Positions 9,165 through 30,610 of a stretch of DNA of 37,316 bases are shown here, piece by piece. Position 1 is the stretch's first letter. Every line of letters begins with the position of its first letter. This DNA comes from Candidatus Zixiibacteriota bacterium (GTDB lineage: Bacteria; Zixibacteria; MSB-5A5; UM-FILTER-46-8), in the NCBI GenBank assembly GCA_014730345.1, contig WJIJ01000076.1:1-37316 (forward strand). Direction: 5' to 3'. A program made the translations under genes and the position numbers. Under the pieces are notes generated by a model that made no database searches, was not told where the DNA came from, and saw only the letters and a program-made list of their open reading frames with translations.

Positions 9165-12100
9165 TTAATCTCCGGAACCGACAAAATGATACCCCGACCA
9201 GCGATAGCTCTGTTCCAGCAATCGTTCATTTTTCACTAACCGCTGGGCATTTGAAAACGCCCGCAGTATACCGGTTTTTTCGAGTTCATGGAAATACTCT
9301 TTAAAGAAATACGCCCCGTCGAAATCATCGATATTCCAGTATGGCATGATAAATCCTTTATATCCCGCGCTTAACATCAACCGCCAGGCAATTGACAGCT
9401 TTCCGGGAGACATACCAACCGGTAGGAACCCAACACCCGCAAGGTCCGCGTAATAACCCGACGCCTTCCTGGCAGAAAGGATATCTTTTAATCTCAGGCC
9501 GGATGAATCATCCACACCAACGCCATTTATCATGTAATAAAGCGGAGTTCCCGCCTTTTCTTCCAGCCCGGAAACAGAAAGAGTAAAATCAACATTTGCC
9601 GAATCCGGAACGGAATCTGTTCCTTTTTCCTTTAAATCCAATTTTCCCCGGATTTTCACCCTCTCCATGGTCATGCCGTAATAATCGACGACCTTCTTAT
9701 CTCCGCTGCTAAATGAAATAGTCATCGGCTCGGAAGTTAGCGCTGAATCGGGGATTGGCTGGATATCATACAGCGATGGATAAATATTTACTTCCGGTAT
9801 TCCCGGTTTGGTCATAGCGTAAATAAGGTGGTTAAACGGCATTGGGGATGTCATTCCCAGCGGTATTACCGACATCTTTTCCATCGTTTTAAGCGAATCT
9901 TCCAATCCCGTGAAAAGAATCCCTGTCAAAGAGGAGTCTATCTCCGATGTCCCCGCCAATGAAATTATACGGTAATATAACTGACGATTCAACTCACGGA
10001 TATCTTCCTCCAGTTCTTGTTTGAACGCCGATATTTCTCCATCGGCAAGGAAAAAGCGGTAAAGCTCATCGCCCGCGGTATAATAGAAAATTAACGGTTT
10101 CGCTTTTGAAACCTCTAATATGAAATCGAAATCAACTGGAGGAACATCGCAAATGAGGTAAACACCCATGTTAATTTCGGCAAGCCTGTTTATAACATTT
10201 TTATAATCTTGCTCAAAGAATTCTCCCTCAAATCTCACCGCCGCCGAATCTTCCCTGTTCAACCTTGCCAAATTCGCCAGCGCGTTCAACTGCTCCCGGT
10301 AACCGCCTATCGCGGACACCAGCGAATCCACCCTCGGATTTTTAAATTCGATATCGAAACTCGATATAACCGATACCTGCCGGTAATGCGCCGCTTTCTG
10401 GAAAGATTCCAATGCCAGGCGGCTATCGCCGTCCTGATAGTAACTTCTCCCCAGCAACTCGTAGACATCCCCGGGATCAAATGGTAAACGCGACCTGTAA
10501 ATCTCGTTGCGCGTTTTTACCGGCGCCGACTCCAGCGCTTTTTGCGCCCTCTGAAGGTACTCCACCGATTCCTCGGTATCCTTCTTCGAATAACGGACTT
10601 TCGCCAGCAGGTAGAGCGTCCTCCAGTATATATCAGGAAAATTCGCCAGCTCCTTGTCGGCCAGCATATCCCGGAGAACATCCTGCGCCGAAGAGGTCTT
10701 TCCCGTCGAGTCCATTATATACGCCGTCACCAGGTCCCGTTTCGACGAATAAAAGGGATTTCCCAGCCCGGTTACCAGCGAATCAGCCTCTTCCAAAACT
10801 TTTTCAGCGGAATCCCATCCTTCCTCAAACCCGGCGGCTGCCGCCAAATCAAGGAGCATCTCGATACGCGGTTCCTCTTTTTTCTCCCCGGCGGAATATG
10901 TCAGCGCCAGCCGGAAATGGTCTACCGCCGCTTTATAATAGCCTCTCCGCAGGTAATGCCGGGCGAGGTTTTCGGCGAATACCGTTTTATGCAGTTCTGA
11001 TTCGACCTCCTCGGCAGTTTCCAGACCTTCCCGCAGTAAATCCTCACCCTCCTCACTCATCCCCGAGTAGATTAATATCAACGCTTCAATCAGTTTCGAA
11101 TCGAGATAACCGGAAGGTTCATCCGCGGAGAAATAATACCCCGAAGCGAACCGAGCCATCTCCAGCGCGTTATCAAAATCACCGTTTCCCCACATAGCCG
11201 ATGCCAATAGCTGAGCGCACCGCGCGGCGTTGGCGGTATCATCTATTCCCATGAAATAATCGTATGCTTTCAGCGCCGCCCTTCGGGCTTTTTCGTACAA
11301 ACCCAGGCGGAAGTACGCCGTGCTCAAAAGCTGGTCAGCGGCGGCTACGCTGTCCGCGCTTGCGTAACGGCCCAGGTATTCTTCTGCCTTCTCCAGCGAA
11401 TTAGATGATTCCAGATATTTGCCCTGGTTCAACAACAACGTCCCCCTTACATAATAGACATGCGCCAGCACTACGCTGTCGGCCGCTCTGTTGGCGATTG
11501 CCAGCGCCGAATCCGCCTCCCGCAGCCCCCTGAAGAAATTGCCATCCCGGTTATACAGGTCAGCAATTTTCAGGAAACCCTCCGCGGATGTATCAGTGGT
11601 GTCGCCGATTTCGTTCTTGAACGCGTAATACATCCGGTGATATGCCGCCGCCTTTGTGAAAAACCGTCCTCCCTCGGATATCACCCTGAGCAACATGTAC
11701 GATTCGAGCTGACCCTGTTCGTCCTCCCGCTTACGCTGTATGCGCATAATCTTCTTCTGGTAATCCTCGGCAAGGGCAAACTTTTCAGATTTGAATGCCG
11801 CGTTGACCGCGCCGCCGAGAATGGCTATAATTTTGTCATCATCAAGCTCAAGTTTATCGGTCAGGAAATAGGCGTTTTCATAATATTCCAGCGCGTCCGG
11901 CCAGCTTCCCTCCCTCTGAGCTATAATCGCTTTCTGGATAATCCGGTTGAACTGCTCCCGCGCGTACTCAAGCTCTTCATCATTGGTCATCCCCTTGTAT
12001 CCCAACAACTCGAAACTGCTCCAGTAATTGTAGCCCGGATATCTCTCCCGTATATCATATCTCGCCGCTCCCACCGCTCCGGCAACGTTGTAATCATCGA

Positions 12101-15100
12101 GATAAGAGATACAGAGCTGGGCAAACTGGTTGAAAACCGAATCGGGGACTTTTTCACGGGTAAGGACAATTGACGGCGCTCCCGCGTAATTAAGCGCCGC
12201 CTGCAACGCGGGGAGGGTCTCGTATGCTTTATCCACATGTCCCGTATTTAAGATAGCCGCCTCGCAGTTCAACTCGAACGTTAAAAAGTCGCTCAGTCTT
12301 CGGCCTCCGGCGGGAGTAACCAGCCGGGTCCCTAACGGAAATCCGGTTTGCGGCTCCATCCCGTCATGGAAAACCAGCACACCGTAATTAGCTAACGCCG
12401 ATGGTATGCTGTCCTCCCCCGCCCAGGCGAACTCCCCCCATTTCTCCGCTTCCCCGGGACCGGATATTACCATCACACCTTCGGATGGCACTCTCCGGTT
12501 CTGATATCCGTTGACCGCCATCACCGCGCTTGAAGAGATCGAATAATCGCACATATCCGCCAGCGCCAGACCATCACGCCCTATCCTCGAAAACGGTATA
12601 TCATAAAGAAATCCGTCGGGTATCAATACCGCATAACCGACATTCTCGATATCCTCCTGGAATTCGGCGAACATCAAATCAAAAAGAAGCGATGAAGCCT
12701 CATCAAGGCTGTCACTGTCCAGCGAATTGTTAGCGATAAACACCAAACCCTCCAGTGAATCCTCATCTATCTCCCGGAACTGAAAAGTAACACTGTCACC
12801 GTTATGCTTCCATATCCCCAGTCCGTCATCGAAAACATGATACTCCAGCAACAATCCTTCATCCTCGCCCAGCAGGACCGATACCATGCTGTCATCGGGC
12901 GTTGTTGGATATATCAATGGCGACAACGATGGGAAATTCTCGATTATCTTTTTCAATTCCTCATCGAGTTCGATGCTCATATCTCCAAGCTCCACCTTCA
13001 GCGAATCCAGCGCGTTTTTCTCCTCGATAGTCAAATTATCGAGGCGGACCTCGTACGCTCGTATCATTGTACCCAGCGAATCGACCATCTCATCGAGGTA
13101 GCTGATATTCGTCCAGTAGACCTTATGAAGCTCGCTTCGGAAATCCCGTACCGGGTAGCGCGCGAACTCGCCGGCTAAACTCATGGAACGGTACAGTTCC
13201 ATCGCCTCGAACGCTTTCCGTTCTTCTCCCCGGTCTATCAAGTATTTAAGGTAGATTTCGTATGATTTCCTCAGTGAATATTCTTCTTCAGGAAGCGCGA
13301 ATGGGTTTTTAGCCCCGCGTATCGTCTTCAGTATCTCCGCCGATGAGTTAAAATACTCATCTTCCCTGTAACTCTGTGGATTGGTAATTCCTAAATCGAG
13401 GTTGATCCTCCACAGGAGGTCATTGTAACCATTTTCCCGGGCCAGTCTTTGCGCCTGGTTCAATTGATTATCCGCCAGTTCATAATCCTTCTTGTGGGCG
13501 TACACAAGCCCTTTGTTCCTCCTTATCGCGGTCTGCGAATAGGTGTCCTTTAATATCGATGCTATCTCATCGGCGACATTGAAATACTCCACCGCCTTCT
13601 CCAGCAGGACATCGGAACTATCCTCGCTTTCGATTCCCATCGCCTCCAGGTAGAACCCCGATGCCAGCGCGCAATAGGAATACATCTTCAGAGGCGACGC
13701 CGCCCCCGGAAGTTCGGTCAGCCCATCGCTCAAATGCCTTTCTATCTTTTTTATCTCTCCCCGGGGGTAACCTTCTCTTAATTCCGGTATCGAAAGCAAA
13801 AGGTTATAGAGGTTTATCGCGTTAATCGCCACTCCCGGCAAAAGCTCGGCGTCCTCCGCTAAATCGATAGCCCTGCGGTAGTACGCCGCCGCCGAATCCG
13901 GGTTCCCGGAATAAAGGAACAGATTCGCCAGCTCATTGGCGGTTATACCCGCCGCCTTGTCATCATCGCTGTCTCTCTCCAGTTCAATCTTGTCTTTCAT
14001 CCATACCGCCGCCGAATCTATCTTGCCCAGTTCGCTGTAACTGCGGGAGATGTAGCTTCTCAGCAACCGCTGGTTCAGATTATATGGAAAACCACGCGGA
14101 TAAAAAGAACCGCCGATCTTGAATTCCTCAAGCTCCGCCAACTGGAAATACTCCGGTATAAGGATGAACCTCCCCATCAATTTCCCGCGCGTTTTCAAAT
14201 CGGTGCGGGGGCTAAGCGATGAGTAAATTGAATCGGATATCGATGCGTACTTTATGCAACTACGGTATTCACGGTCTATATATTCATTCGCCGCCAGCGC
14301 TTTATGCACCTGCGCGATGCCCTTTTTATCTTCGCGTGATTTATAAATATCGAGAACCTGGTCGAAATAATATCGTGATTCATCGAAATCCTCCATCAGC
14401 ATATAGACAAGCCCCAGCTTGCGGAAAATCCGCAGGCGGAAATTAGTATCCCCCTTCCTCTCGGCAATTCTCAACAACTGTTCCATACAGTCTGTAGCAA
14501 TAAATAGGCTGTCTATCTGCATCGCCGCGTCCCCCAGGTTCCAGAGGAAATCTATCTTCAATTTTTCATCCCCCCCCTTCTCCACGAACTGGTAACACCG
14601 GTCATAATACGAGTATGCCTGCGAGAATTGACCGATATGGTAATAACCGGTCGCGAGATTCAGGTAAAGATGATACTCGACCTTTTCCGGTGTTTCTTCA
14701 CCGATAGTTTCTATCCCCAGCAGGGAGACATCGATAGCCCTCTCCGCAAACCCGCTTTCCTCTGCCTCCATTCCCGCAACCTCCATCTTCAGGTACACCT
14801 CTCCGAGGGCTACGTACGGAAATATCCATTCAAAATATTCCTCGTTTAAATCCTCCAGCAACTCCTTCGCGTCTCTTAACCTGCTCTTCGAACCGCTTTG
14901 GTCATACCGGGAAATTAAAAGTATGCTCTTTCCGTAAAGGAAACCCCGGTCTTCCTCGTTTGAGTCCAGCCACCGGTCATATCCCTTATCCGCGTAGGAA
15001 AGGTCATCGAGAGCTTCACAGCATTTAACGAATCCCCAATGGCAGTCACCCCTATCGGAAAACCGTCCTATCAATTCCTCGAATTTTATCCGTGCCTTGC

Positions 15101-17051
15101 TGTACTCGCCGGAATTGAAAATGGAATCAGCTTCCTTCAGATATGTCCGGTACAAAATCTCCTCGGCGCTTTCATAGAGCTGGTTGGACAACCCATCTGC
15201 ATCGAGCAACTCATTAAGCTCCGATATACCGGTCTGTCTATCACCCGCGATAATGCTCAGCTCCGCCGCGTTCAAACGCGCCTTAGCGCTTATTTCACCG
15301 GTACCCGGATAGGAAAGGTAAACCGATGTGAACTGGTCAATCGCCCCTAAAAGATTCCCCCGGTCACGGTATGCCTTCCCGATTTCAAACTCTCCCCGCG
15401 CCTGCAATACCTGGTTATCCGGGAACTCCCTCAACAACGCCCGTATACCCTCAACCCTCTCATTGACCGGCGCATCCGAGTACTGGTAGATAGCATAGTT
15501 CACCGCGCTGTCGGTAAATGCGTTCGCTTCCGGGAATTCCCTTATTGTATTTATATAGTTGCGGGCGTTGGAAAGCCTGTCCTCCGGATTAATAGTACGA
15601 TATACATCCACAATCCGCAGATGCGATTCACAAACTACATCCACTATATCTGGATAATTTTCCGCCGCCAGGTTGAATGAATAAAGAGCGTCCTCAAAAT
15701 TGCCATAGCGGAAATTCACCATGCCCCGCAGGTAATATGCCTCCGCTTCAACCCGCCTGTCGCCGGCATAATCCTCAAGTATATCATCTATCGCCCGCAA
15801 TGCCCTGCGCGTGGCCGCCCTGCTGTCCAACTCCCATCTTTTTTCCGTGTCCAGTTCAACCAGGTACAGTTCGGCGAGCCCCTTCAAAGTCGAATCGGCA
15901 TCGCTTTCGGTTATCGACTCCCATGTACGTTGCGCTTCTCGGTACAACCCCTCCCGCATATACAAATATCCGCAACGCAGAAACGCCTCCATGGCCGCCG
16001 GTTCATCCGGGTACAATTTATAATACGATTCAAGATACTGTATCGCCGCCAGCCTTTGATATCTCTCCGGCGCCCCCGAAAGATTCTCCGAATATGTAAC
16101 CAGCGATTCGGGATATGAATAAATATTCAGCAAACGCCCCATATCAAACCGGGCTACATTTTCCTCCCCGTTGTCATCCACGGCAACATACGCCCATTTG
16201 TTCTCAATCCCCGGTCTCGGGTAGGAAACTCCCGTCTCCCTGAATATAAGTTTCACCGATTCCTGCTTATCGCGGAAATATCCGCAGACCAGGGGAGAAT
16301 CATCGATATTCAATGCCCCGTCGCCATTGGTATCCACGGCATATTTTGTATAATAGATAATATTCCCCCCCGGGGAGAAGTGGGGGTGCATCACCGGACC
16401 ATCGCCGGTATCAAGATATTCTATATTCCCCTGCAGGTCCGACACCGCGAGTATATTGTTATGCCCCAGACCGGTAGTATCAAGGGCGATATAAGCGATG
16501 TAATTGCCGTCGGGAGACCAGCATGGATTTATTCCTCCGTTAATAGTGATCCGCCGGACATCTTTTCCGTTGGCATCCGCTACATATATATCCTGTTGAC
16601 CGGGCAGATCCCTGTCGGAACTGAACGCTATCAGTTTCTTCTCCGGTGAAACGGCCGGTTCGATATCATAGCCCTTATTTTCGGTAATCCGCCGGGTCGA
16701 ACCTGTTGAAATAGTATAGCGGTATATCTCCCCTAATGCGTCATCCCGCCGGGATACGAAATAAACCGACTTGCCATTCGACGCCCAGCACGGGCTGTAA
16801 TCCGCCGAAGTATGATTGGTCAGCCGGACCGGGATGCCCCGGCCGGTGGATTTAATGTATATATTGAAATCACCATCCCTGCCGGTCGTAAACGCTATCT
16901 TATCCCCCCTCGGCGAAACCGACGGCTCAAAATCTATCCCCGGGTGCCCGGTTACCTTCTTCAGCACCGGTATAAACTCCTCATAAGCGCGCGCGTTGCC
17001 GGGAAGAAACAGCGGAATTATAAACAGCATGTATATTAAAAATCTTATCAT
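9165..17051 (-). CDS. Giant secreted protein: TolB/WD40-like propeller, long TPR arrays, and two divergent CHAT-like domains
   Basis: Signal peptide MIRFLIYMLFIIPLFLPGNARA; propeller repeats (DFEPSVSPRGDKIAFTTGRDGDFNIYI; DYSPCWASNGKSVYFVSRRDD; DIEPAVSPEKKLIAFSSDRD; NPCWSPDGNYIAYI); many TPRs; CHAT-like segments at about 12.9-11.98 kb and about 10.2-9.17 kb. Start chosen at 17051 (ATGA overlap with upstream stop at 17048); ORF track gives 17081. Confidence 0.85.
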   Translation of the reverse strand: MIRFLIYMLFIIPLFLPGNARAYEEFIPVLKKVTGHPGIDFEPSVSPRGDKIAFTTGRDGDFNIYIKSTGRGIPVRLTNHTSADYSPCWASNGKSVYFVSRRDDALGEIYRYTISTGSTRRITENKGYDIEPAVSPEKKLIAFSSDRDLPGQQDIYVADANGKDVRRITINGGINPCWSPDGNYIAYIALDTTGLGHNNILAVSDLQGNIEYLDTGDGPVMHPHFSPGGNIIYYTKYAVDTNGDGALNIDDSPLVCGYFRDKQESVKLIFRETGVSYPRPGIENKWAYVAVDDNGEENVARFDMGRLLNIYSYPESLVTYSENLSGAPERYQRLAAIQYLESYYKLYPDEPAAMEAFLRCGYLYMREGLYREAQRTWESITESDADSTLKGLAELYLVELDTEKRWELDSRAATRRALRAIDDILEDYAGDRRVEAEAYYLRGMVNFRYGNFEDALYSFNLAAENYPDIVDVVCESHLRIVDVYRTINPEDRLSNARNYINTIREFPEANAFTDSAVNYAIYQYSDAPVNERVEGIRALLREFPDNQVLQARGEFEIGKAYRDRGNLLGAIDQFTSVYLSYPGTGEISAKARLNAAELSIIAGDRQTGISELNELLDADGLSNQLYESAEEILYRTYLKEADSIFNSGEYSKARIKFEELIGRFSDRGDCHWGFVKCCEALDDLSYADKGYDRWLDSNEEDRGFLYGKSILLISRYDQSGSKSRLRDAKELLEDLNEEYFEWIFPYVALGEVYLKMEVAGMEAEESGFAERAIDVSLLGIETIGEETPEKVEYHLYLNLATGYYHIGQFSQAYSYYDRCYQFVEKGGDEKLKIDFLWNLGDAAMQIDSLFIATDCMEQLLRIAERKGDTNFRLRIFRKLGLVYMLMEDFDESRYYFDQVLDIYKSREDKKGIAQVHKALAANEYIDREYRSCIKYASISDSIYSSLSPRTDLKTRGKLMGRFILIPEYFQLAELEEFKIGGSFYPRGFPYNLNQRLLRSYISRSYSELGKIDSAAVWMKDKIELERDSDDDKAAGITANELANLFLYSGNPDSAAAYYRRAIDLAEDAELLPGVAINAINLYNLLLSIPELREGYPRGEIKKIERHLSDGLTELPGAASPLKMYSYCALASGFYLEAMGIESEDSSDVLLEKAVEYFNVADEIASILKDTYSQTAIRRNKGLVYAHKKDYELADNQLNQAQRLARENGYNDLLWRINLDLGITNPQSYREDEYFNSSAEILKTIRGAKNPFALPEEEYSLRKSYEIYLKYLIDRGEERKAFEAMELYRSMSLAGEFARYPVRDFRSELHKVYWTNISYLDEMVDSLGTMIRAYEVRLDNLTIEEKNALDSLKVELGDMSIELDEELKKIIENFPSLSPLIYPTTPDDSMVSVLLGEDEGLLLEYHVFDDGLGIWKHNGDSVTFQFREIDEDSLEGLVFIANNSLDSDSLDEASSLLFDLMFAEFQEDIENVGYAVLIPDGFLYDIPFSRIGRDGLALADMCDYSISSSAVMAVNGYQNRRVPSEGVMVISGPGEAEKWGEFAWAGEDSIPSALANYGVLVFHDGMEPQTGFPLGTRLVTPAGGRRLSDFLTFELNCEAAILNTGHVDKAYETLPALQAALNYAGAPSIVLTREKVPDSVFNQFAQLCISYLDDYNVAGAVGAARYDIRERYPGYNYWSSFELLGYKGMTNDEELEYAREQFNRIIQKAIIAQREGSWPDALEYYENAYFLTDKLELDDDKIIAILGGAVNAAFKSEKFALAEDYQKKIMRIQRKREDEQGQLESYMLLRVISEGGRFFTKAAAYHRMYYAFKNEIGDTTDTSAEGFLKIADLYNRDGNFFRGLREADSALAIANRAADSVVLAHVYYVRGTLLLNQGKYLESSNSLEKAEEYLGRYASADSVAAADQLLSTAYFRLGLYEKARRAALKAYDYFMGIDDTANAARCAQLLASAMWGNGDFDNALEMARFASGYYFSADEPSGYLDSKLIEALILIYSGMSEEGEDLLREGLETAEEVESELHKTVFAENLARHYLRRGYYKAAVDHFRLALTYSAGEKKEEPRIEMLLDLAAAAGFEEGWDSAEKVLEEADSLVTGLGNPFYSSKRDLVTAYIMDSTGKTSSAQDVLRDMLADKELANFPDIYWRTLYLLAKVRYSKKDTEESVEYLQRAQKALESAPVKTRNEIYRSRLPFDPGDVYELLGRSYYQDGDSRLALESFQKAAHYRQVSVISSFDIEFKNPRVDSLVSAIGGYREQLNALANLARLNREDSAAVRFEGEFFEQDYKNVINRLAEINMGVYLICDVPPVDFDFILEVSKAKPLIFYYTAGDELYRFFLADGEISAFKQELEEDIRELNRQLYYRIISLAGTSEIDSSLTGILFTGLEDSLKTMEKMSVIPLGMTSPMPFNHLIYAMTKPGIPEVNIYPSLYDIQPIPDSALTSEPMTISFSSGDKKVVDYYGMTMERVKIRGKLDLKEKGTDSVPDSANVDFTLSVSGLEEKAGTPLYYMINGVGVDDSSGLRLKDILSARKASGYYADLAGVGFLPVGMSPGKLSIAWRLMLSAGYKGFIMPYWNIDDFDGAYFFKEYFHELEKTGILRAFSNAQRLVKNERLLEQSYRWSGYHFVGSGD

Positions 17052-17665
17052 TCGCCTATCGTAACTTCTTTGACTCTCCATTCGCCGGACTCACCCTGAA
17101 CCATCCTGCCCGCCTTCTCCTCACCGATATTTTTAGCCGCGAATATACGCTGAACCTGAGGGAGATCTTCTTCGGTTAAATCCGCCCTCAATGTTATTAC
17201 CCGGTCCATCAACACTCCCCGCGCCGAATTCTCCTCCTCGACCACAAGCTCCAGCACGCGCCGGTCGGCATCCGGAAGAGACCCGGCTTTATCCTCGAAA
17301 ATATGCAGTAACCCGTCTGAACCCTCCCCCGCTACCTGCAGGTCCTTGAATTTCTCGATATCGTCATAATTAAACCTCTGCCGGGCAAGCGCGTTAAGAT
17401 ACTCTATTCGACTGCTGTCAGCTTCCACCAACGCGCTTTCGCCCGCTAATGAGTCCGACAGCGAACTGCGGTAGCTCTGGTACAGACCTCCATCCGCCGC
17501 GGGAAGGTATATGTCCCTCGTGGAAAGTTTATACTGCCCCAGCAGTTGATGCTCCAGCACCGTCTTTTCTCCGGTAACGGTAATCTCAGGCGGCTTGACC
17601 GTGCAGGAAACTATCATCACGCAAGCATAAACAATCACCACTATAACAACTTTAATATTGTCCAT
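17048..17665 (-). CDS. Lipoprotein with DUF1318/YdbL-like C-terminal domain
   Basis: Lipobox VMIVSCTVKPPEITVTGEKT; C-terminal EEENSARGVLMDRVITLRADLTEEDLPQVQRIFAAKNIGEEKAGRMVQGESGEWRVKE resembles the E. coli YdbL C-terminus (..VDDIARLAGQKLVARAKPGEYVQGINGQWLRK, recalled). RBS-like AAGGAGAA just upstream of ATG 17665; the ORF track's 17689 start overlaps the previous gene. Confidence 0.6.
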   Translation of the reverse strand: MDNIKVVIVVIVYACVMIVSCTVKPPEITVTGEKTVLEHQLLGQYKLSTRDIYLPAADGGLYQSYRSSLSDSLAGESALVEADSSRIEYLNALARQRFNYDDIEKFKDLQVAGEGSDGLLHIFEDKAGSLPDADRRVLELVVEEENSARGVLMDRVITLRADLTEEDLPQVQRIFAAKNIGEEKAGRMVQGESGEWRVKEVTIGE

Positions 17666-24400: not shown

Positions 24401-24733
24401 CTTTTTGATGTTCTTATAATAAGTCGCCCTGTCGGAGTTGAGGGTGCTTCCCTGCCCGTCATCAACGAAAACGTTGTCTATCAGTACCGCCACTCCCGCG
24501 GATTTGTACCATATAGCCCTGCCGCAGAAAATATCGGTGCTGTCCTGCCGGAAATGGATATTTCCGTTCAAATTCAATATTAGATTATCTTCGTCATTGT
24601 TCAGCTCGAGATTATCGCTGTGTATCAGCTCCAGCGGAGAACTCGCCTTATCCTCGGCCGCCGAATCGCCCCAGGGCAATAGTATCACCATCAACAAAAC
24701 AAAATATATTGGAATGGTTGTGAAATAGTTCAT
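21419..24733 (-). CDS. lptD: LptD-like LPS assembly outer membrane protein with extended OstA/LptA-like N-terminal domain
   Basis: Signal peptide; repeated OstA-like strands (LNLNGNIHFRQDSTDIFCGRAIWYKSAGVAVLIDNVFVDDGQGSTLNSDRATYYKNIKKLIAIGNVVATSDSG); central TTCNLLDPHYCFKSRKMKLIARDKVVARPVIMYIGEVPVAALPYYVFPIKKGRHSGF; C-terminal barrel. Confidence 0.88.
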   Translation of the reverse strand: MNYFTTIPIYFVLLMVILLPWGDSAAEDKASSPLELIHSDNLELNNDEDNLILNLNGNIHFRQDSTDIFCGRAIWYKSAGVAVLIDNVFVDDGQGSTLNSDRATYYKNIKKLIAIGNVVATSDSGRTVITGRRGLYLRDSEYVEVTGEPKLTSRNEGDTSDVVITAVKLEYYGDEEKGVATDSVEITKGKLIATGGIAEFYKVDEYALLYEDPKAVQEDSYLTGDTIRVFTADEEVERISVDGNAVANYEGKPDSTQARGSLTKLTGKKLDFYFTDEEADSALVMGTATSYYRPATMDTLSSDINEASGDTIKFYIEDEDLDKALIIGGARGTYRYRPDDAPADSVVEDTVRYSARWIEYQAGDSSITLDGNSNVTYQGMNLRAHRIVYATARDHIFAEGDSVHTDDSSSYKNPPILTEGEEKLVGYKMEYNIKNKKGRIVYADTEFEGGYYHGEDVRKITDEVLYVKDGVYTTCNLLDPHYCFKSRKMKLIARDKVVARPVIMYIGEVPVAALPYYVFPIKKGRHSGFTAFEIGNIERGELFIRNVGYYWAASDYWDVQGTLDYYEDSHTALNGQFRYAKRYILNGNVSGSYVNESRYVGMTRTGGTRWQVRFGHSQTINETTRLAASGSFMSDKRYMEDLSYDPEEIRNRNINSHVSLSKSYDQASLTVVANQNWNLDTDVRTENLPSITYSRRQQALIPFREPKEKGIEKERSWYNDIYYSYSLSANNYRRIENVDGAEAWREHMTANHQWRISAKMKFLGVFNLTPGANYRETWYYIPETTAANNAGVETATFKRRGTYSLSTNLNTTLYGMFNFNAGLVDAIRHIMTPSATYSWSPEFKSNEEYYSFTGVGGAPGKVSSISLGLSNAFQMKGSVGDKEYKTDLFNINFSTGHNFLAEGRKWSNLSTSIQATKIKNLSLSGGMTHSFYDDDPADVTPDFLHPRLLNFNITGSFSMVGRTSSVSQSQTPEDTLGGLEVDYFNRRSAAEIPSQSPWNVSLTGRYVESRFGSNKSISRWLGVRYESPITAGWRMKYNFSYDVDDKKITDQELQITRNLHCWEMVFIWRPSGIRSGYFLRINVLELPDVKVETSEGGITPGSLY

Positions 24734-24810
24734 TGCGGCTTATCGCAAGCGCGCTCCCACCTCCGAACTTCGCCGGTTTGACCGAACCTGGGAAGACGCT
24801 CCGCGCGTTG

Positions 24811-25527
24811 TTAATCTTTGATTATTGCCGCGATCTCATTAATCGCGTTTTCCAAACCGGTAAACAGCGCCCTTCCGGTTATCCCCCTGCCGATAACGAA
24901 CTCCTCTATCTGTCCGCTGTCAGCGAGGGCTTTGATATTACGCTTATCCAGGCCGCCGCCGCAACTCACTCCCAGAAGGAGCTTGTTCGCCAGCTGAGCC
25001 ATGGAAATTATCTTTTCCGCCTCCGCCGCCCTTTCAGCTCCGCCGGACGCGTTTACATAGCCCCATGTGGAAAACTCCACGTAATCCGCTTTCGTCTTCG
25101 CCGCCAGCTTGACCCCCTCCACCTCGGGAGGTATATAAAGCGATACCATTATATCCTTCGTCTGAAGCTCCGTGGTCAACTCCGATATCCGGTCATAATC
25201 CAGGGCCAAATCAAGCGCCGGCATTATCCGCGAATCCATATCCCCTTCGCCAATCAAGGTAACGCTCCCCGGGGAAATACTCACTGCCGTATCAATCATG
25301 AACTCCGTGGGTGGGATTATCATGTTAAAATGAGTACCGATTACATTCTTCAGTACCTGGAATTCTTTCCTGCTGATAGATCCATCCCCTCTCGCCGGAC
25401 ATATTGCTATCCCATCGGCCCCAGCCATCTCGACCTGCATCGCCGCGTGATACAAATTGGGAGTTCCATTTTCATCGCCGCCCCTCAGGTAAGCTATATC
25501 ATCAATGTTTACGCTTAGTCTCGCCAT
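24811..25527 (-). CDS. PdxJ-like TIM-barrel protein, divergent active site
   Basis: Overall collinear with pyridoxine 5'-phosphate synthase: LSVNIDDIAYLR, AAMQVEMAGADGIAI, TPTEFM-like turn, VEFSTWGYVNA, GGGLDKRNIKALADSGQIEEFVIGRGITGRALFTGLENAI. Several canonical catalytic residues are replaced. Confidence 0.82.
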   Translation of the reverse strand: MARLSVNIDDIAYLRGGDENGTPNLYHAAMQVEMAGADGIAICPARGDGSISRKEFQVLKNVIGTHFNMIIPPTEFMIDTAVSISPGSVTLIGEGDMDSRIMPALDLALDYDRISELTTELQTKDIMVSLYIPPEVEGVKLAAKTKADYVEFSTWGYVNASGGAERAAEAEKIISMAQLANKLLLGVSCGGGLDKRNIKALADSGQIEEFVIGRGITGRALFTGLENAINEIAAIIKD

Positions 25528-25558: not shown

Positions 25559-26737
25559 CTATATTCTCAGCAAATATTGCGAAACAGGGGTAACTTTGCA
25601 ATTTAACTTGGAAAGTTGGTTAGCCGCGTTCTTTATCCCCGTGGCGGCGCCTTCCTCCACCGATATAAGCACTATACCCCAGTTATCGGTAAGGAGCATC
25701 TTCCGGTGCGTATCCAGCATCTGCAGGCGGATACGGTCTTCACTTTCGCCTTCAATCCAATTAATATCCTTCACCAGCTTTCCTCCCGCCTTCGTGAATA
25801 TTTCCACCTCCCCCTTTATATCATCGGCATCACTCAGCATTACATATCCTTCCCCACCCAATTTTTCCGCCAGCTTCTCACCCAGCGGCGGGGAACCTTC
25901 CCGCCAGAACACATACTTATTCTTGCCCGCCAGCCTCTGCATAACATGAAACGCCTGGTCGAAATCCCGCGCTTTGCGCAGTCCCACTATCGAAGCCGCC
26001 GCGTTCATCAAGCGCGTGAAACTTCCTTCATCAAATGGTATCTCGTATATAATCTGTTGCTCACCCGCCTCCAGCGCTTCCCTCGTATCGGTAAATCCAA
26101 GCGAACCCGGCTTCAGTATATAACTGTACATCACTCCCAAATTCAACAGCTCCGTCCTCGATTTGCCCGTCTGCGCCTGCACCTTGTCGAGAATAACTAT
26201 CATCCGCGATGCCTGCGGCGAAACTCCTCGCGATGATGTCAAACGGAATTTTAATATATCCTCATCACCCGCCTTCAGGGTAAAGTCCAGCGACTTCTCA
26301 TCTCCGCTTTCCACGCAGTCAACTACATCATACTCGGTCCCGGAAAGGTTCCTTATCAATTCACGGTGGAAAATCATCTTGGGATAAAGCGATGATATCT
26401 TCACCTCGTAAATAGACTCCATCGCCTCGTTCTCCCCGGCAAAATCGGTCTTCCTTATATCCTCGGGATTGACCCCGAAAGACGCCGCCGTCCTTATCAC
26501 CGGTTCGATCAATTTAGTCTGTTTCTCCGGCACGCTCATCCGCGCGTAATACTGGTCAGCGAGCAAATCCACTACCTGCTTGCCGCTGAAATATATCGCT
26601 ACCAGCAGAACTATCGCGGCGATGACCATCACGATATTCATTACCCTGCGGTCGCCCTCGCTCATCATCCGCGTGCGCTCTTCTCTGCTTAACCTCGTAT
26701 GATGCGGAGACCCGCCCTTTTTACCTTTTAACGCCAA
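25559..26737 (-). CDS. Membrane-anchored protein, possibly a degenerate divergent polysaccharide deacetylase (YibQ-like)
   Basis: N-terminal TM (IVMVIAAIVLLVAIYF); C-terminal region RMIVILDKV...LNLGVMYSYILKPGSLGFTDTREALEAGEQQIIYEIPF resembles the layout of divergent polysaccharide deacetylases (IIDD...LP...EVLLHLPM). Confidence 0.45.
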   Translation of the reverse strand: MALKGKKGGSPHHTRLSREERTRMMSEGDRRVMNIVMVIAAIVLLVAIYFSGKQVVDLLADQYYARMSVPEKQTKLIEPVIRTAASFGVNPEDIRKTDFAGENEAMESIYEVKISSLYPKMIFHRELIRNLSGTEYDVVDCVESGDEKSLDFTLKAGDEDILKFRLTSSRGVSPQASRMIVILDKVQAQTGKSRTELLNLGVMYSYILKPGSLGFTDTREALEAGEQQIIYEIPFDEGSFTRLMNAAASIVGLRKARDFDQAFHVMQRLAGKNKYVFWREGSPPLGEKLAEKLGGEGYVMLSDADDIKGEVEIFTKAGGKLVKDINWIEGESEDRIRLQMLDTHRKMLLTDNWGIVLISVEEGAATGIKNAANQLSKLNCKVTPVSQYLLRI

Positions 26738-26752
26738 ACTCCTTACTTCCTT

Positions 26753-27307
26753 TTAATTCGGTATTGTTAAGTCCTTCCATACTATTATGCGCCAGAGCCC
26801 GTCCCGTTCGCTCTTCTCAAATTTAAACTGCGCCCTGCCCGTAGCCTCCATCTGCAGAAAACCAAAATTACCGGTTATATCCTTCAAGGATAGATGAAAT
26901 ATCACCAGCCTCGCCTCCCACTCCGGGGGATCATCCTCGTCGAGTTCCGATTTATAAATCTGCCATGTATCCAACCTGATCTCATCGAACGCCTCGAACA
27001 ATCCGGTGGTACGGTATACGTCTCCCCCTATTCCATCCCGGGGTACCGTTACCGTCTCTATCTCGCCCTCACGGTCCTGGTCATAATATATAAAGACGAA
27101 CTCCGGTGCAAGCGTATGTTCATAAATATCGATATCACGGTTCTCGTAGGCGAACTTGAAATTCGCCAGCACGCTGTCCGGTTCGGTCTGCTCCGCGATA
27201 GGCTTTATAAGTCCCAGTCCCGCCTCCGGCGGCGAAAATGGATTGGTGCATGAAACCGCCCAAAACGAAATAATGCTGATAAAAACAAACCACCAGAGCT
27301 TTTTCAT
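26753..27307 (-). CDS. NTF2/SnoaL-like lipoprotein, paralog of the adjacent gene
   Basis: Lipobox WAVSCTNPFSPPEAG; ANFKFAYENRDIDIYEHTLAPEFVFIYYDQD; C-terminal GRAQFKFEKSERDGLWRIIVWKDLTIPN. Confidence 0.6.
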   Translation of the reverse strand: MKKLWWFVFISIISFWAVSCTNPFSPPEAGLGLIKPIAEQTEPDSVLANFKFAYENRDIDIYEHTLAPEFVFIYYDQDREGEIETVTVPRDGIGGDVYRTTGLFEAFDEIRLDTWQIYKSELDEDDPPEWEARLVIFHLSLKDITGNFGFLQMEATGRAQFKFEKSERDGLWRIIVWKDLTIPN

Positions 27308-27309
27308 CT

Positions 27310-27930
27310 CTACCTGAACTGCACCTTAAAATCCGCCCAGCTGATCGAACCCGATTCCCGCGGATCCGGACGGTCAATCCACAAATCTATCGCCCATCCC
27401 TCGATACTCGAGCGCGACATATAAAACATCGCCTCCCCAACAGCTATCGTGGTATCTACCGTACTCTCTCCATTTGTTACAAACGACAGCGTATATTCAC
27501 GTATAAGCATCGCCGTGGAATCATCCTCTTCATCGAACTCGTTGGATGACAGGTCAATCATCAAACTCAAATACGACGAATCCGAACCCTGGGGAAATGA
27601 CTGAAAAATCCTGCGGGTTACCGATTCCTCCACATTCACGTCCCAGTCGTAGAATAATGAGCCGTCGCCGTTCTGCTCCGCTTCAACGGAATCCTCGTAT
27701 GCCGAAAAAGCGAAACTGTCCGATAAACACCGGCGGTAATTGCTTATATTACGCTCATTATAAGCCGCCAGCAGATTTGCCACCACTATCCTCGGCTCGG
27801 TGGGAACCTCCCAGGTACCGGATGTCCCGATGGGCGGTTCGCTCTCACGGGTCGAGAACGGATTTTTACAACCCGCGGCAAATATCAAAATCAATAATAC
27901 TATACTTGTTTTACATAAAATTTTGTTCAT
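27310..27930 (-). CDS. NTF2/SnoaL-like lipoprotein, paralog of the adjacent gene
   Basis: Lipobox FAAGCKNPFSTRESEPP; VANLLAAYNERNISNYRRCLSDSFAFSAYED; C-terminal GEAMFYMSRSSIEGWAIDLWIDRPDP. Same layout as 26753-27307. Confidence 0.6.
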   Translation of the reverse strand: MNKILCKTSIVLLILIFAAGCKNPFSTRESEPPIGTSGTWEVPTEPRIVVANLLAAYNERNISNYRRCLSDSFAFSAYEDSVEAEQNGDGSLFYDWDVNVEESVTRRIFQSFPQGSDSSYLSLMIDLSSNEFDEEDDSTAMLIREYTLSFVTNGESTVDTTIAVGEAMFYMSRSSIEGWAIDLWIDRPDPRESGSISWADFKVQFR

Positions 27931-27944
27931 ACATCACCAATATA

Positions 27945-29825
27945 TCAAAAAGACCGGCTCAATGAAACCGTAAACTTATCATCACGTATGTGACCCCGCC
28001 TCCAACCATCTATTATACGTCTTGAAGCCGCAAAAGTAAACCTTTCCAGCTCGGAAAATATATACTCAAATTGTAAACTTATTATCCGCTGATCCTGCCG
28101 GTCCTTCATTACCCGCGCCTTCTCGATCGGAGCTTCATCGTCTGTCGGGTCGGTTTCCTCGGTATGCTCCCACTCACGCTTGTAATCGAAACTGTAACCG
28201 GGAAGTACACGGAACCTCCCGAAGAACAGGTAATCAAAGGTGATATTCCCGAAATGAGTACGCCGGTCCCAGCTTGTCAGTTGCTGCCACTGCTCATCCC
28301 AGACCAACTGCCCGTAATCCTCGTAACGGTATCCGTATTCTATATCCATAATTAAATTTTCCGAGAATCTATATTCCATCCTGCTCCGTGAATCACCCCG
28401 CCGGAAGATACGGTTGCGCGAATTCAATAACCTTTTTTCATAATCGTATGTTATATAATTCGCCTGTATCTCGAAATTCTGGTAAACGGATAGTTTCTCC
28501 GATACCGACCATACTATTCCCGGAGCAAGCAAATATGTATAATTGCTGTTGTTATCCGCCGAGCTTAATCTGCTCAAATATATCTGGTCGAAACTCCTGT
28601 AACCGAAACGGACATTCGAACGCAGGTATTTGCTCCATATCCGGCTGTAGGTAAGATTGAAAATTTCGCTGGATACATCACGGTCTGCTATTAATGCGAA
28701 CTCATCAGGATGATAAAACGAACGCACTCCCACCGATGCGTCCGCGCTCAATGAATCCCGGTCGGTTATATCAAATGTTAATATACAGCCCAGCTCCCCG
28801 TAAGACGACTCCTGGTCCCGCTCATCAAGCCCGAAATCTTCATCATAACCGCTGAAACGATAATGAACCGTAATTTCCGGCGTTCGGTCCGCGATATGGA
28901 ATTTCCTGCCTGCGCTGACCACCAAATTATGCGAGAAACGGGAGTTATCCCTGTCCTTCAAACGCGAAAGCTCCGATGAATCGGCTTCCTCCGACGTATA
29001 GCGATACTCATTGAAATCGATAGCGGCTTCGATCCTCGTTTGTACTCCCAGGGGAATTCCCTTAATTAATATACTCTCCAACGCCCGTTCGTGCTTCACC
29101 TGTGAGTTTGTTCCTTCAAGCGAATACGCCGAAGCATAGTATTTCCGCTTCCCCCGGAAATCAACATACTTGACCAAAAAGCTGTCTCCACCGGCAAAAC
29201 TCTTTGAATACTCTCCCGTAAAAGTGAACTCATTGGAAGGTATCGTCCGGAAAATATTCTCCTCTATACTGAACTCCGCGTTCAACCTGTCCCTTCCAAA
29301 AACACGGCTGTCCACCATCGCGTTCCAGAACATCTTCGCGCCCCTGTCCAACCGTTTCCCGAGCTCTTCATCCCGCGAAGTTATCATCCCGCCCAAACGG
29401 TAATTGAACTTCAACCAGCGGGTAAGCCTGTAAACGGCCCCGCCGGTAATCTCCGAATCCTGCAATCTTCTCTGCCCCAATGAATTATAACTTTGATAGA
29501 TGTCGAAATTCACGCCAACTCGCGGCGAAAACTGGTATGTCAGCCTGCTGTTTATCTCACGGTCCTCCTGCCACTGATCCGCCCCCGATGCTATCAGCGA
29601 TTCCTTAATCAGCGTTGAACGAAGCCTGCCGTCGATAAGTACCCGGAACCTATCCGATGGCTTATAATTATACAACAGCGAGCTCTCCCACCTGTAGGTC
29701 TGGTTATCCTGGTTAAAAAGCGTTCTGAATGTTGAACCTTCCGCCTCCGTTAAGATTGCCATACACAACAATATAACTACAACTCCAAAACGGATAACTC
29801 CTGCCGTATTCGATGAAGGGCTCAT
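27945..29825 (-). CDS. Putative outer-membrane beta-barrel protein
   Basis: Signal peptide, alternating aromatic/polar beta-strand pattern throughout (e.g. RWLKFNYRLGGMITSRDEELG, KYLRSNVRFGYRSFDQIYLSR), terminal KFTVSLSRSF ending in Phe. ATGA overlap with the rsmA stop. Confidence 0.72.
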   Translation of the reverse strand: MSPSSNTAGVIRFGVVVILLCMAILTEAEGSTFRTLFNQDNQTYRWESSLLYNYKPSDRFRVLIDGRLRSTLIKESLIASGADQWQEDREINSRLTYQFSPRVGVNFDIYQSYNSLGQRRLQDSEITGGAVYRLTRWLKFNYRLGGMITSRDEELGKRLDRGAKMFWNAMVDSRVFGRDRLNAEFSIEENIFRTIPSNEFTFTGEYSKSFAGGDSFLVKYVDFRGKRKYYASAYSLEGTNSQVKHERALESILIKGIPLGVQTRIEAAIDFNEYRYTSEEADSSELSRLKDRDNSRFSHNLVVSAGRKFHIADRTPEITVHYRFSGYDEDFGLDERDQESSYGELGCILTFDITDRDSLSADASVGVRSFYHPDEFALIADRDVSSEIFNLTYSRIWSKYLRSNVRFGYRSFDQIYLSRLSSADNNSNYTYLLAPGIVWSVSEKLSVYQNFEIQANYITYDYEKRLLNSRNRIFRRGDSRSRMEYRFSENLIMDIEYGYRYEDYGQLVWDEQWQQLTSWDRRTHFGNITFDYLFFGRFRVLPGYSFDYKREWEHTEETDPTDDEAPIEKARVMKDRQDQRIISLQFEYIFSELERFTFAASRRIIDGWRRGHIRDDKFTVSLSRSF

Positions 29826-30610
29826 ATCTTTGTCTTAACTATCCTGTACATATCCACTAACTCGCGTGCCGAAAACTCCCCGGGCCTTTTATCTATGTCA
29901 AACCCCTCCTGTTCTAATATATCGGAAATCTCCTCAACTTCCAAACCCTCAATACCTTTCAAGTTATTGCGTATCTTTTTCCTCCTCTGGGAGAATACTA
30001 CCTTGATAAAATCGATAAATCCTTCGCGTCCCTCCATTTCTATCAAAGACTCCGAACGCCTGCTTAATCTAATTACCCCCGAGTCTACTTTGGGCCGGGG
30101 ATTAAAACTTCCCGCACCCACCGTAAAAAGATACTCCGGATGAAAATCTATCGCGCTAACTATACTCAGGACTCCATATTCCTTGCTACCCTCCCCCCGG
30201 CATATCCTGCGGGCTACCTCTTTCTGCACCATTAACACTACCACCGGAAAAAACATGCACTTATCCGATATCCAGCGCATTAAAAGGCCGGATATATGAT
30301 ATGGTATATTACCGCACAGGTAAACCGCGCCCCCACTATTCAAACTCGCCGGATCGATCTTCAATATATCATTATTGATAACATCAGCCTTGCCCGAAAA
30401 TTCAATACTCAAACGCCCGGCGAGTCCTCTATCTATCTCCACCACCTTTACATTATCATACAACTCCGTCAATGCTTCCGTGAGCCTGCCCCGGCCGCCG
30501 CCGATTTCCACCACCATAGATCCCGGAGGAACATCTCCCAGCGATTTAGCGATTCTTTCTGCAATCCTTTTATTGGTTAGAAAATATTGGGAAAGGGATT
30601 TACGGCTCAT
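29822..30610 (-). CDS. rsmA: 16S rRNA (adenine1518/1519-N6)-dimethyltransferase
   Basis: SLSQYFLTNKRIAERIAKSLGDVPPGSMVVEIGGGRGRLTEAL, CGNIPYHISGLLMRWI (NxPY motif), MVQKEVARRICRGEGSKEYGVLSIV, NPRPKVDSGVIRL, FSQRRKKIRNNLKG. Confidence 0.96.
   Translation of the reverse strand: MSRKSLSQYFLTNKRIAERIAKSLGDVPPGSMVVEIGGGRGRLTEALTELYDNVKVVEIDRGLAGRLSIEFSGKADVINNDILKIDPASLNSGGAVYLCGNIPYHISGLLMRWISDKCMFFPVVVLMVQKEVARRICRGEGSKEYGVLSIVSAIDFHPEYLFTVGAGSFNPRPKVDSGVIRLSRRSESLIEMEGREGFIDFIKVVFSQRRKKIRNNLKGIEGLEVEEISDILEQEGFDIDKRPGEFSARELVDMYRIVKTKI

Follow-up and report, generated by a model that had tools for sequence, protein, structure and literature searches.

What does a protein do that is built like pyridoxine 5'-phosphate synthase (PdxJ) once most of that enzyme's active site is gone? 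The question is raised by the minus-strand gene at 24811-25527 of the window, by which we mean the whole 37,316-nucleotide stretch analyzed here, from a Candidatus Zixiibacteriota metagenome-assembled genome (MAG). A preliminary description had judged the product to be probably not pyridoxine 5'-phosphate synthase and had recommended an alignment with phylogeny, a structure prediction, and a search for other pdx genes in the same genome. The frame is intact, opens with ATG, and comprises 238 codons. The Pfam PdxJ profile (PF03740) covers the entire protein (profile positions 1-234 of 234, 173 bits), and identity to E. coli PdxJ is ~33-35% (phmmer E ~1e-31), so that homology extends over the whole domain. 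However, the score of 138.7 bits lies below the TIGR00559 equivalog cut-off of 192.75, and the protein also falls under every other NCBIfam PdxJ cut-off (NF003623-NF003627). An AlphaFold2 model built from a 36-sequence alignment has a mean pLDDT of 90.1, and its 16 best matches in the PDB are all PdxJ, with TM-scores of 0.89-0.91 to the crystal structures. Since the model is confident and its best matches are PdxJ chains, the predicted fold is the TIM barrel of PdxJ. An overlapping plus-strand reading frame (24733-25518) was taken as spurious because the conserved neighbors and the homologues all lie on the minus strand. A pseudogene or assembly artifact was rejected as well, given the intact frame, the confident model, the recurrence of the pattern in dozens of independent assemblies, and purifying selection in related pairs.

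The active site is where the protein departs from its family. Aligned to E. coli PdxJ, whose numbering is used throughout, it keeps 5 of 14 active-site positions (N9, D11, E153, G194, and G215); the catalytic and substrate-binding roles of the positions scored are assumed from general knowledge, a literature search on them having yielded no relevant paper. His45, Glu72, and His193, which we take to be the catalytic residues of the E. coli enzyme, are replaced by Cys, Ile, and Gly. The remaining losses are His12 to Asp, Arg20 to Asp, Arg47 to Ala, His52 to Ser, Thr102 to Arg, and His216 to Arg. Most of these replacements, at positions 12, 45, 47, 72, 193, and 216, had already been recognized in the preliminary description, as had the retention of Glu153. 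It had overlooked those at Arg20 and Thr102, and it had placed the histidine-to-serine change at position 50, which is an arginine in E. coli; the histidine concerned is His52. The active-site loop 95-105, which has been described as conformationally coupled to substrate binding (PMC10471632), is eroded as well. These losses are not a matter of chance, because, in a comparison scan biased to close relatives of the query, 13-14 of the 14 residues are kept at 71 of the 73 PdxJ loci whose records do not carry the Zixiibacteriota label. Of the other two loci, one is truncated and keeps all 10 of its readable residues, and one (L147) is degenerate.

PdxS and PdxT are adjacent in the window's genome, in an operon, and apparently intact. 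The PdxS translation has both lysine motifs, and PdxT has GTCMG, with its Cys, and FHPELT, with its His and Glu; we read all of these as catalytic from general knowledge. Because the two genes are adjacent and carry the expected motifs, the organism very probably makes B6 by the DXP-independent route. The search for other pdx genes found no PdxA, the partner of the DXP-dependent route, in this genome (G000), and no further PdxJ. The gene at 24811-25527 is thus the sole PdxJ, and the idea of a paralogue living beside a second, functional copy was rejected.

The feature also reaches much further than the preliminary description could see, being common to most of the phylum. Among 134 Zixiibacteriota genomes searched for PdxJ, 10 carry a canonical protein with 14 of 14 active-site residues, and 75 carry a readable degenerate one, in which 1-10 of the 14 are kept and His193 never is. 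PdxA occurs in 9 of the 10 canonical-PdxJ genomes versus none of the 75, and PdxS scores above its cut-off in none of the 10 versus 73 of the 75, counts that are not phylogenetically independent. The two degenerate-PdxJ genomes without PdxS (G002 and G061) are both draft MAGs, and because the genomes are mostly MAGs, any single absence is uncertain. PdxH (PF10590) was matched in none of 32 genomes, canonical-PdxJ genomes included, and does not discriminate between the pathways. One MAG with 9% contamination (G057; loci L025, L210, and L062) yields two PdxJ fragments, one of them canonical-type, as well as a diverged PdxJ of full length; it is probably a mixture of organisms.

The recommended alignment and phylogeny confirm the catalytic losses and place the degenerate proteins within the Zixiibacteriota PdxJ clade. 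All PdxJ of the phylum group together (SH-aLRT 98), and a branch with SH-aLRT 84-93 separates canonical from degenerate members, a split that persists when the tree is built without the active-site columns and the loop. The branch leading to the window's PdxJ is among the longest in the tree. We take this protein to be the PdxJ that its lineage inherited vertically, and not a paralogue. On the simplest reading, the phylum switched pathway once and PdxJ then eroded separately in each family, a direction of change that we infer. A similar change may have happened elsewhere. The degenerate locus L147, from the scan of named genomes, belongs to a phylum group of six genomes, four of which have canonical PdxJ and PdxA without PdxS; the other two have degenerate PdxJ without PdxA, one of them with PdxS and PdxT. 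The tree groups these two degenerate proteins with the canonical ones of their own phylum, a placement that makes a second, independent origin likely. Such an origin is not proven, because under an AU test a common origin for the degenerate PdxJ of the two phyla could not be rejected (p 0.12-0.15).

Most canonical and degenerate genes share a locus. In the window, PdxJ is preceded on the minus strand by a 392-aa protein with an N-terminal membrane segment (25559-26737), a conserved PdxJ neighbor in its own family; by predicted lipoproteins of 184 aa (26753-27307) and 206 aa (27310-27930); and by a 626-aa protein without a Pfam match (27945-29825), these last three being conserved PdxJ neighbors as well. 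Beyond them lie the KsgA/RsmA 16S rRNA dimethyltransferase (29822-30610), the neighbor common to most canonical and degenerate PdxJ loci, and, conserved beside it, a TatD nuclease fused to a radical SAM domain (TIGR04038; 30624-31991). The order TatD, KsgA, the 626-aa protein, the two lipoproteins, PdxJ is found in canonical families f8, f13, and f16 and in degenerate families f1, f5, and f11. A shorter order, TatD, KsgA, PdxJ, is found in families f7, f17, f18, and f19, usually with an RluD-like pseudouridine synthase after PdxJ. In the most diverged families, f10 and f14, PdxJ is no longer at the TatD-KsgA locus. The 206-aa lipoprotein also stands upstream of canonical PdxJ outside the phylum (L106, L107, L111, and L226, in KSB1-like and SM23_31 records), and its pairing with PdxJ is an old gene association. 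The 392-aa protein has no significant Pfam match; its counterpart beside PdxJ in another Zixiibacteriota family (G005, L088) matches the divergent polysaccharide deacetylase family PF04748, and the protein therefore looks like a highly diverged member. In several other Zixiibacteriota families, the gene at the TatD position encodes only ~260-290 aa. Elsewhere, the window contains a 2638-aa reading frame (9165-17081, minus strand).

What the degenerate proteins have kept bears on what they might do. Among these relatives, active-site side chains are preferentially lost: their mean retention is 0.41, versus 0.70 at other columns invariant in canonical PdxJ (permutation p ~0.001), and His193 is kept in 0%. 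By comparison, the phosphate-loop glycines persist, G215 in 100% and G194 in 93% of degenerate proteins (f10 and f14 left out). Retention of these glycine loops suggests that most degenerate families are still able to bind a phosphorylated ligand. In f10 and f14, G194 is lost too, and phosphate binding therefore cannot be the function everywhere. The homologues in these two families (L030 and L061-L066) are extremely diverged, and near strand 6 most of them share an Asp and a Cys; their function has possibly changed once more. In f10, a radical SAM protein follows the diverged PdxJ.

Such retention could mean that the protein still catalyzes a reaction, but a new one: the end of the PdxJ pocket that anchors phosphate would have been preserved, with different chemistry carried out by new residues. 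In most degenerate families, Asp11 and Arg17 show strong conservation together with the phosphate-loop glycines; Glu35, Gly38, Pro88, Gly226, and others are also among the kept positions. Lys142, Lys184, and Asn199 are even more conserved than in canonical PdxJ, and the nearest folds other than PdxJ in the structure search are sugar-phosphate epimerases. However, the newly conserved residues lie mostly on helices rather than at strand C-termini, and the pocket varies by family, with no new invariant set of pocket residues spanning the degenerate clade. Thus, we consider a new enzyme unlikely, although it is the most serious of the alternatives. Since no new pocket set is shared, a noncatalytic binder or scaffold is the favored form of the retained function, a preference that we hold tentatively and at somewhat less than even odds.

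Alternatively, the gene could be vestigial, made redundant when PdxST arrived and now drifting towards loss. Active-site residues have indeed disappeared piecemeal and differently in each family, and several families that have PdxS (f2, f4, f9, f12, and f15) show no PdxJ at all, so that the function retained elsewhere must be dispensable in them. But the gene is kept across nine families, nearly all genomes have an intact reading frame (a single TAG was seen, in one MAG), and the core residues Gly38, Pro88, Gly215, and Gly226 are near-invariant. Moreover, dN/dS is ~0.02-0.2 in close degenerate pairs versus ~0.03-0.1 in canonical pairs, as estimated by NG86 alongside YN00. These pairs are relatives of the window's protein, whose own family is too diverged (saturated at synonymous sites) to yield an estimate; many wider pairs are likewise saturated. 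Values this low mean that degenerate PdxJ are not decaying relics, and drift towards loss is improbable. Purifying selection in relatives supports a retained function for proteins of this kind, and with essential catalytic residues lost, the fold kept, and selection acting in related degenerate pairs, the protein has the marks of a pseudoenzyme.

A lower probability still attaches to continued synthesis of pyridoxine 5'-phosphate, with the missing residues relocated or their part taken by others. The fold is fully retained, and Glu153 and Asp11 are present. But His45, Glu72, and His193 are all replaced, and PdxA, which supplies the co-substrate of PdxJ in the standard pathway, is missing from every one of the 75 degenerate-PdxJ genomes. 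In addition, a complete alternative B6 route exists in the window's genome, and PdxS accompanies degenerate PdxJ nearly throughout. Together with the sub-cut-off NCBIfam scores, these observations uphold the earlier judgment: the gene very probably encodes a protein that has been retained without making pyridoxine 5'-phosphate. Least credible of all is a stand-in for some other protein of B6 homeostasis, for example the PLP-binding YggS/PLPBP, which is, like PdxJ, a TIM-barrel protein linked to B6; this replacement was rejected because YggS-family genes are nearly universal in the phylum (130 of 134 genomes, the window's included).

The account that we regard as probable, if by no means secure, is that PdxJ was disarmed after a takeover by PdxST and kept as a selected barrel that binds a phosphorylated ligand or a partner. 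The ancestor of most Zixiibacteriota would have gained PdxST, and with it the DXP-independent route, and lost PdxA, in an order that we infer. PdxST would then have displaced the catalytic role of PdxJ, which could shed its acid-base residues and its active-site loop. The comparison across genomes shows that the disarmed gene nevertheless stayed, mostly at its old locus, intact and under selection. At present, the TIM barrel, which still has its phosphate-gripping glycine loops (G194 and G215), may bind either a phosphorylated ligand or another protein without catalysis, and so serve as a sensor or a scaffold. One may go further and suppose that the barrel itself carries a second, ancient function of PdxJ, one unconnected with making pyridoxine 5'-phosphate. 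We regard this as possible, though on the unlikely side. If true, it would explain why the barrel was kept in disarmed form across most of one phylum, and probably in a second, after PdxST took over, and canonical PdxJ in these lineages would be bifunctional. Since matched canonical and disarmed orthologues occupy one locus and are accompanied by a switch of B6 pathway, a hidden PdxJ function is directly testable here.

These observations also affect how pathways are read from genomes. A survey of PLP pathways takes pdxJ to predict the DXP-dependent route and pdxST the other (PMC9997740). With pdxJ used as such a signature gene, domain-based predictions would be wrong for most Zixiibacteriota. 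In the open-access literature searched, which mostly leaves out subscription journals, we found no description of catalytically depleted PdxJ or PdxJ pseudoenzymes, nor of PdxJ in Zixibacteria.

It is useful to contrast the window's protein with known systems. With PdxJ itself (PF03740, TIGR00559), it shares full-length homology, a predicted fold at a TM-score of ~0.9, the locus of canonical PdxJ in the phylum, and the phosphate-loop glycines. It differs in having lost His45, Glu72, His193, and most substrate-binding residues, in scoring below all NCBIfam cut-offs, and in belonging to a degenerate form that co-occurs with PdxST and not with PdxA. The PdxS/PdxT PLP synthase of the DXP-independent route supplies B6 in the same genomes, but it is a separate enzyme system of another family and the probable replacement of PdxJ. 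Finally, pseudoenzymes in general (reviewed in PMC5106787 and PMC10211241) likewise combine a recognizable enzyme fold, lost catalytic residues, and a gene under selection. Here, in contrast, the positional orthologue itself appears to have been disarmed after its pathway was displaced, and to have become a pseudoenzyme in that way across most of a phylum.
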